A stretch of 64,000 nucleotides of DNA from Bacteroidia bacterium. Its GTDB lineage: Bacteria > Bacteroidota > Bacteroidia > J057. Below, piece after piece: positions 22,977 to 24,657 of the stretch. How positions within the stretch are numbered: the first letter of the stretch is position 1; the number at the start of each line of letters is the position of its first letter. The stretch covers positions 1 to 64,000 of the forward strand of contig JAUIGE010000029.1 in the NCBI GenBank assembly GCA_030430205.1. Reading direction: 5' to 3'. Made by a program: the position numbers and the translations under genes. The notes under the pieces are model-generated. The model saw only the letters and a program-made list of their open reading frames with translations, did no database searches and was not told the origin of the DNA.

Positions 22977-23545
22977 TTATTCCGACAATCCCCCAGGCCT
23001 CTTCCCTAACTTCCTTTCCTCTCCTTTTACTCTTCGTTTCAATCTTTGAATATCCTCTTCAGGAGGAAGATTTTCAGGTTTAATTCCTCGTTGAAGGAGA
23101 AGATCTCGCACCCCTTTATTATTTTTGATATGCTCGGTTGAAATGGATTTTTCTGTACTGAGCTTTCGCTCTTTTGAATTGAAGATGGTGATTTCAGTAG
23201 CAAAGTCTTTTGCTTTAATCGTAATCGTGGGTAAGAAATCCGCTAATGCCCTGTTTGTTGGTAAATTAAACTGGAAAGTTCCTTTTCTGACAAACTCAGT
23301 TTTTCCCTTGCCTGCAGGGGTTCCCAATCTCTGATCCGCTGTTCTATGAGTTCATATTTTCGGGTTTGTATGGCGAAATAGTTTTGAGCAAAGGCAATGG
23401 TTTCTTTTTGGGGGTCGCCGTTCTGCGCAATGAGGTAACAAGCGTAGCGAGTGAGCATGATGTCAGCGATTTCTTTTGATCGTTTTGTTGACGTCAACAA
23501 AATGATCAGAAACGCTGTTTTGGCTGATTTTACCTATTATGGCCT
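22977..23545 (-). pseudogene. dinD: dinD-like gene, truncated and frameshifted
   Basis: Pieces of a DinD (DNA-damage-inducible protein D/BRO-related) gene are spread over several frames. From the 5' side, [11 protein letters not shown] lies in one frame near 23500-23535. Next [30 protein letters not shown] and [18 protein letters not shown] read in a second frame (23243-23500). Then [31 protein letters not shown] and RGIKPENLPPEEDI read in a third (22977-23270). About 30 codons are missing between the last two pieces, and the N-terminal ~80 residues are gone. The family pattern is clear, but no intact product can be made. It belongs to a decayed accessory island. Confidence 0.8.
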
Positions 23546-23592
23546 AGGGAAAGTTCGTCTGGAACCGGAAGAGTTGTCATAAAAGAGAAAAA

Positions 23593-24296
23593 ATGAAAAA
23601 GGTTATTAAGATTTCTAAAGTAAAGATTCAGGAAATTGTGAATCAGCAAGCTCCTGATAAAGGGACAATACTTTTTGTGTTGGATTGCAAATCAATTGAG
23701 GATAGTAAAAGCTTTTTAAAAGCGGCCACCAAAGTTTTTCCCCTTAATCCACCAATAATGGCAATACAGGTGGTTTGGGATGCTTTTACTGACTCGCTAT
23801 TTGGAGGATTTTCAGATTTTGTAGATCTGGTCTCCTTCCCAAATGTGTTATTTGTTTTTTTAGTACAGGACAAAAAAATGGAACCTATGAAAGATGAATA
23901 CCCCAAAGTCCCGAAGGGACGTCATATGCCACGATCGGGCAAAGCCCGATCATTCGATTAACGCCAGGCATTGAAGCCCTGAAAGGGCGATCTATTGGGT
24001 AAGGCGTTTTTTTTATATATCGTCCTTTCAGGACTTCTATGGGAGTCGTTCCCCTTCATGGGGCTTCGCCCCATGCTAAATATAGCGTCCCTTCGGGACT
24101 TTTGGGTGCTTAACTGAAAAATTGTCCTGTACTGAAATTTGTTTTAAAAGATATTAACGTAATAGCGGAAAAAGATCCTGCAGCCTTTATAGAAATAGAA
24201 TATTCCTTTAACAAACTTTTGAAAGATGTATATAAACCTGAGACTGGTCTAAGTGAGCTTTTGGGAAATATTGATGTAATATTTAGCTATTCTTGA
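23593..24296 (+). pseudogene. Barstar-like gene split by an inserted element
   Basis: The first 91 codons (23593-23865) encode MKKVIKISKVKIQEIVN through SFPNVLFVFLV. A 264-bp element then interrupts the frame. If the element and one TA duplicate are removed, the frame continues without a stop from 24132 (LKFVLKDINVIAEKD, then EYSFNKLLKDVYK) to TGA 24294-24296, giving a 145-residue protein. As it stands, translation would enter the element and stop at 23961. The pattern TILFVLDCKSIED, VVWDAFTDSL and NVLFVFL resembles barstar-family ribonuclease inhibitors/immunity proteins, a tentative match. A DUF7710 gene lies downstream. Confidence 0.75.
23866..24129. mobile_element. TA-flanked MITE-like element
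   Basis: The element begins CAGGACAA and ends TTGTCCTG (perfect inverted ends) and is flanked on both sides by TA, as in target duplications of the IS630/Tc1-mariner group. A second, internal pair of inverted repeats (AAGTCCCGAAGGGACG near 23915 and its complement near 24090) and several stems (ATGGGGC/GCCCCAT, GATCGGGC/GCCCGATC, CCTGAAAGG/CCTTTCAGG) make it strongly structured. It encodes no transposase, so movement would need an enzyme in trans. Confidence 0.75.
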
Positions 24297-24384: not shown

Positions 24385-24657
24385 ATGAACCCATATTTAT
24401 TTGTATTCATGGGCGAAAGAGGATTTGTCCCTGCTGGAATTTTCACCTCATTTGAGGTGGGTAAAAACTGGATAGTAGAAGAAAGACTTAGTGGAACGTT
24501 ACATAAATTGCCTCTTGATATAGGATTATATGATTGGGCAATTGCAAAAGGTTATTTCACACCTGAAAAACCTCATCAATCTACTCCCAGATTTATCGAG
24601 AAATTTTCCTGCGCATCAGTAGAGCATTGGCATTTTGAGGAGGGAGTTCTACAGTAG
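24385..24657 (+). CDS. DUF7710-like small protein
   Basis: The 90 residues follow the pattern FVFMGERGFVPAGIF, then a helix with W (EVGKNWIVEE), GTLHKLPLDIGLYDWA, and EKFSCASVEHWHFEEG. This resembles the DUF7710 family of short bacterial proteins found near toxin-immunity genes. No signal peptide or catalytic motif is evident, and the function is unknown. The start ATG 24385 is 88 bp after the end of the split barstar-like gene on the same strand, so both may be cargo of the same small accessory island. The family assignment is from memory of the pattern. Confidence 0.6.
   Translation: MNPYLFVFMGERGFVPAGIFTSFEVGKNWIVEERLSGTLHKLPLDIGLYDWAIAKGYFTPEKPHQSTPRFIEKFSCASVEHWHFEEGVLQ

Follow-up and report, generated by a model that had tools for sequence, protein, structure and literature searches.

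The description of Acido-Lenti-1 as a candidate RNA reportedly dates from 2010. Rfam classes it as 'sRNA' with unknown function (RF01687), it is listed without a function in PMC2864571, and one recent paper proposes that it regulates nearby proteases (PMC13298647). Among the literature searched, the papers that name Acido-Lenti-1 make no connection with mobile DNA. Short hairpins that occur in many copies and form head-to-head dimers are characteristic of the REPs and REPINs with their RAYT/TnpA-REP proteins (PMC3733652, PMC6006769, PMC3116915), and REP hairpins that flank Y1 genes are already known (PMC3733652). Also MITEs that trapped another repeat have been found before. The example is BrickBuilt of P. 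gingivalis, which contains a 23-nt tandem repeat without an Rfam match and has inconsistent target duplications (PMC4596501).

The window analyzed here is a stretch of 64,000 nucleotides from a genome of the class Bacteroidia, and it contains an insert that shares features with all of these systems. The reading that we favor, with a probability of roughly 85%, is that the insert is a MITE of a genome-specific family, which generates a 9-bp target duplication and encloses a separate, REP-like module, i.e., a dimer of Acido-Lenti-1 hairpins. In contrast to BrickBuilt, the element in the window has a regular 9-bp duplication and an Acido-Lenti-1 core. In contrast to REPs and REPINs, its hairpins lack the GTAG tag and are enclosed in DDE-style ends with a 9-bp duplication. 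The features of the insert and of the gene that it interrupts are as follows:

23593 to 23858, plus strand: N-terminal piece of the interrupted gene with 88 complete codons and 2 bases, possibly barstar-like (open frame; weak Pfam Barstar match of the joined frame; profile comparison)
23850 to 23858, no strand: left copy of the 9-bp target duplication ATTTGTTTT (perfect match to the right copy)
23859 to 24136, plus strand: copy of MITE family A, a non-autonomous transposable element of 278 bp (alignment of at least 25 near-full genomic copies)
23859 to 23873, plus strand: left terminal inverted repeat TTTAGTACAGGACAA (inverted-repeat search and copy alignment)
24122 to 24136, minus strand: right terminal inverted repeat, TTCAGTACAGGACAA when read on this strand (inverted-repeat search and copy alignment)
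24137 to 24145, no strand: right copy of the 9-bp target duplication ATTTGTTTT (perfect match to the left copy)
24146 to 24296, plus strand: C-terminal part of the interrupted gene, with the stop codon TGA at 24294-24296 (open frame)

The ends of the element were defined by an alignment of 20 genomic copies, followed by measurements on 27 copies with both ends. Over these 27 copies the conserved ends were NTTAGTACAGGACAA...TTGTCCTGTACTGAA, and in both alignments the conservation extended 7 bp beyond the shorter repeat on both sides (NTTAGTA-CAGGACAA and TTGTCCTG-TACTGAA). Directly outside of the conserved ends a 9-bp direct repeat was present, which had a mean identity of 0.90 in the 27 copies. 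When the right flanks were reassigned to other copies 1000 times as a control, the mean was 0.36 and the maximum was 0.48. In 21 of the 27 copies 8 or 9 of the 9 positions were identical. The reconstructed target sites were AT-rich (25% GC), with a T at positions -4 and -1 and an A at the mirrored positions. Such a symmetric preference is as expected for a dimeric transposase, which would belong to the DDE class. Taken together, the insert has the properties of a MITE: it is 278 bp long, non-coding and multi-copy, and it has inverted repeats of about 15 bp and a constant 9-bp duplication.

The genome (7.24 Mb, 80 contigs) was searched with the insert, and at least 25 almost complete copies and numerous pieces were detected, with E-values down to 3e-133. 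Some of the pieces ended exactly at contig ends, as is expected of a repeat that breaks assemblies. The first-pass annotation, which had described a non-autonomous insert that is bounded by inverted repeats and splits an open frame, was confirmed in these points, and the copy number speaks against a chance pattern. The element was absent from all 59 relatives examined and from the plasmids searched, and an exact 20-mer of one of its ends was found in none of 84,980 species genomes, a set from which some records were possibly left out. The genomes of 22 order-level relatives contained isolated matches to the element ends only. On present evidence, MITE family A appears to be specific for this genome. 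An empty insertion site was not seen in the relatives. A spanning frame of at least 100 codons was restored at 5 sites among the 27 copies, including the site in the window. Two further copies, L003 and L007, may also interrupt long frames, i.e., one of 513 codons at codon 479 and one of 361 codons at codon 13, respectively.

The first-pass annotation had also proposed to search for the element ends together with a matching transposase. All end pairs of the assembly that contained no more than one mismatch were MITE-sized; no two ends were a transposase gene apart, and a complete parent element with the same ends was not found in the assembly. Unpaired end-like sites were considered as traces of a parent, and they look like chance matches. 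Two PF01609 transposases, one IS50-like and one ISAs1-like, have other ends, namely CTACGGTCTATACACA and CAGGGTTTTCCTATAAAAAA, respectively. Searches for a parent insertion sequence yielded no useful matches in the 22 order-level genomes, in the 84,980 species genomes (exact 20-mer) or in viral contigs. The missing parent does not exclude a MITE, because it may have been lost from the genome or may be absent from the assembly. A target duplication of 9 bp is typical of IS4-family insertion sequences of the IS10/IS50 type. The element in the window shares this length with them, and it differs in that the search for a transposase with its ends found none. Based on the target preference, a transposase that is probably of the DDE type would have moved the MITE in trans and chosen AT-rich sites. 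The insertion point of the copy in the window is codon 88/89 of a small gene, which was broken by it.

The frame of this gene opens with the ATG at 23593. When the insert and one 9-bp copy are removed, one continuous open frame of 138 codons results, which runs to the TGA at 24294-24296 and in which ...NVLFV is joined to LKDINV.... The earlier claim that excision restores the frame thus held, while the proposed join with 145 codons had to be replaced by that of codon 88 to LKDINV. That the join with 145 codons is open as well is due only to the difference of 21 bp between the two joins. A convincing homologue of the interrupted gene was found neither in the 22 order-level genomes nor in two phylum- and class-level samples with 395 genomes each, in the 84,980 species genomes searched with peptide patterns, or in the plasmids and phages searched. 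Weak class-level matches with E-values of 0.002-1 covered short stretches, and many of them were located within much longer frames. Because no convincing homologue was found with which continuity across the junction can be checked, the evidence for the junction consists of the family-wide duplications. As read from the sequence, a small gene is broken by the landing of the element.

The gene had been annotated as barstar-like, and a competing view is that it is an unrelated orphan frame outside of the barstar family of immunity proteins. The orphan frame agrees with the absence of convincing homologues and with the result that no database family scored above its cut-off: Pfam Barstar (PF01337) matched the 9-bp join with 13.1 bits (E 0.094), below the cut-off of 23.4 bits, and it did not match the TA-based join. 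On the other side, Barstar was the sole immunity family to surface in the Pfam search, and it surfaced only with the 9-bp join. In addition, WDAFTDSLFGG of the interrupted gene aligns with the WDA motif of barstars, and in a profile comparison with eight barstars the gene scored above 198 of 200 shuffles, while the other two scored as high; only 38 columns, which surround the WDAF.D motif, were aligned, with a probability of 3%. We give the orphan frame slightly less than an even chance, and 'barstar-like' is plausible but weakly supported, at about even odds.

The interior of the element consists of six hairpins in mirror order, and it has the following features:

23905 to 24100, plus strand: core with six hairpins in mirror order (fold z -9.2; stem conservation over 16 cores)
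23908 to 23920: hairpin H1
23933 to 23951: hairpin H2
23976 to 23988: hairpin H3
24022 to 24034: hairpin H3'
24057 to 24075: hairpin H2'
24087 to 24099: hairpin H1'
24057 to 24100, plus strand: match to Acido-Lenti-1 (RF01687), 39.6 bits with a gathering score of 37
23907 to 23951, minus strand: weaker, mirrored match to Acido-Lenti-1, 22.9 bits, below the gathering score

The core strand folds far better than its own shuffles. The pair H2'-H1' matches the Acido-Lenti-1 model over its full length and above the gathering score, and this is the sole Rfam match at gathering level within the 64-kb window. The difference to the Rfam family is that here a mirrored dimer with inner hairpins lies within an element with terminal inverted repeats and a target duplication. 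In the whole genome RF01687 had 57 matches, 43 of them above the cut-off, and most were located inside MITE family A. It was present in 16 of 119 genomes (relatives of the window, its own genome included), in most of them in multiple copies, and it had no match in 14 control genomes. The cores of family A and of a second family, B, were combined in an alignment of 16 cores. Within the six local stems 99.5% of the cells were paired and two-sided compensated changes were seen at 8 pairs, compared with 89.8% of the cells and 4 compensated pairs for a pairing of arm to arm. Most of these changes distinguish one of two core types from the other and thus represent few independent events. Because the local stems pair better than the arms, the local hairpins are what is conserved.

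The conservation of local stems, together with the Rfam class 'sRNA' and the presence of one terminator-like site per strand in the element region, would also fit a genuine gene for a small RNA, or a terminator acting in both directions, that is useful cargo and whose spread is a by-product of the transposon. We regard this explanation as less likely than not, because dozens of copies are scattered over the genome and arrays occur in other genomes, and the two terminator-like sites are little above the number in shuffles (0.6, sd 0.9). According to the preferred reading the interior is a separate module, in which two Acido-Lenti-1 units in mirror orientation surround an inner hairpin pair.

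The mirrored core was found in two wrappers besides family A, which have unrelated ends, and one of them was found in another bacterial family. Family B is a second repeat family in the genome of the window; its ends are unrelated to those of family A, and no clear target duplication was found for it. The third wrapper, family C, surrounds a mirrored Acido-Lenti-1-like core in genome G046, which belongs to a different family of the same class. The copies L181-L184 of family C have ends near CATTRTTGTCCGACTAAA, and a 9-bp direct repeat, AAAAAATAT, was present on both sides of only one copy, L181. Two further arrangements were seen in the genome of the window. At L055 (G000 contig C68, 1970-2681) a 300-bp unit with the same six-hairpin core forms a tandem pair and has neither set of terminal repeats, and one RF01687 copy adjoins the IS50-like gene.

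Arrays of Acido-Lenti-1 were also detected on both sides of Y1 (IS200-like) genes in two other genomes, i.e., at L129 (1503-1961) in genome G003 of the same family and at L152 (1407-1860) in genome G482 of another family. These were the only two of the 30 Y1 loci examined that had strong flanking arrays. Both proteins carry the motif Y..Q..HH, which is that of Y1 subclass 1.2 (PMC6006769); for this subclass REP partners have not been reported. The array-flanked genes are suggestive of a link between Y1 transposases and Acido-Lenti-1; an alternative is that a Y1 gene inserted into an existing repeat array. Membership in the CGTC-tagged REP families was considered and rejected: these have stems of 8-9 bp and loops of 4-5 nt, in contrast to the stems of 5 or 8 bp and loops of 3 nt found here, and CGTC adjoins H1' in family A only, with a 5-bp stem and a 3-nt loop.

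The module occurs in three or more wrappers whose ends are unrelated, and in two genomes it forms arrays around a Y1 gene; it is not bound to one transposon. Most likely, Acido-Lenti-1 is a hairpin repeat of the REP-like kind, which would have been picked up and amplified repeatedly by MITEs; for the route of capture and for any benefit from the hairpins we rely on inference. The observations suggest that the Acido-Lenti-1 'RNA' is often passenger mobile DNA. A more specific version is that Acido-Lenti-1 is primarily a mobile hairpin of the REP class, which belongs to Y1 transposases of subclass 1.2, rather than an RNA gene, and that DDE-type elements independently captured the mirrored dimer several times and amplified it. 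We put this version forward tentatively and regard it as less likely than not. If it were true, a nested mobile-DNA system with two transposases would stand behind an Rfam 'sRNA' entry. Acido-Lenti-1 is annotated automatically, and these annotations are misleading if transposable elements carry many of the copies as cargo. The question of what Acido-Lenti-1 is would then become a testable question about mobile DNA.

The hairpin DNA of the core and the arrays at Y1 genes in two genomes could also be taken to mean that the whole element, including its ends, is a large REPIN and that a Y1 transposase of the IS200/RAYT type moved it in single-stranded form. This is very unlikely. The 9-bp duplications are clear, and Y1 transposition is not known to produce target duplications; moreover, the ends are inverted repeats with a symmetric target preference. 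The least probable explanation, with hardly any chance of being correct, is the one of the first-pass annotation, i.e., an element of the IS630/Tc1-mariner type that is bounded by the shorter repeat pair and duplicated a TA. It is true that each of the two repeats has a TA next to it and that the TA-based join is open. The alignment of the copies refutes this explanation, however: the TA is inside both conserved ends and is part of the element, because the conservation continues outside of it in all aligned copies, and the real duplication is the separate 9-bp sequence further out, so that the defining TA duplication is missing. A TA that borders an inverted repeat is by itself no proof of a target duplication. 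The MITE reading with the 9-bp duplication thus corrects the family of the element and fixes its exact insertion site.

The genes next to the interrupted gene were also inspected. Upstream, on the minus strand, a remnant of dinD (DNA damage-inducible protein D) is located at 22977-23500. It is a pseudogene that is represented by two NF008573 fragments with a gap between them, and the N-terminal 79 model positions are missing. It is abutted by a 36-codon tail of another frame (23472-23582, plus strand), which stops 10 bp upstream of the ATG of the interrupted gene. This tail had no match in family or homologue searches, and it may be what is left of a lost toxin gene. It is the only hint of a partner RNase toxin next to the interrupted gene; the first-pass annotation had suggested that the matching toxin has gone. 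The gene directly downstream of the interrupted one, at 24385-24657 on the plus strand, belongs to the family DUF7710 (PF24819, E 1.6e-32), and the two genes possibly belong to the same gene island.
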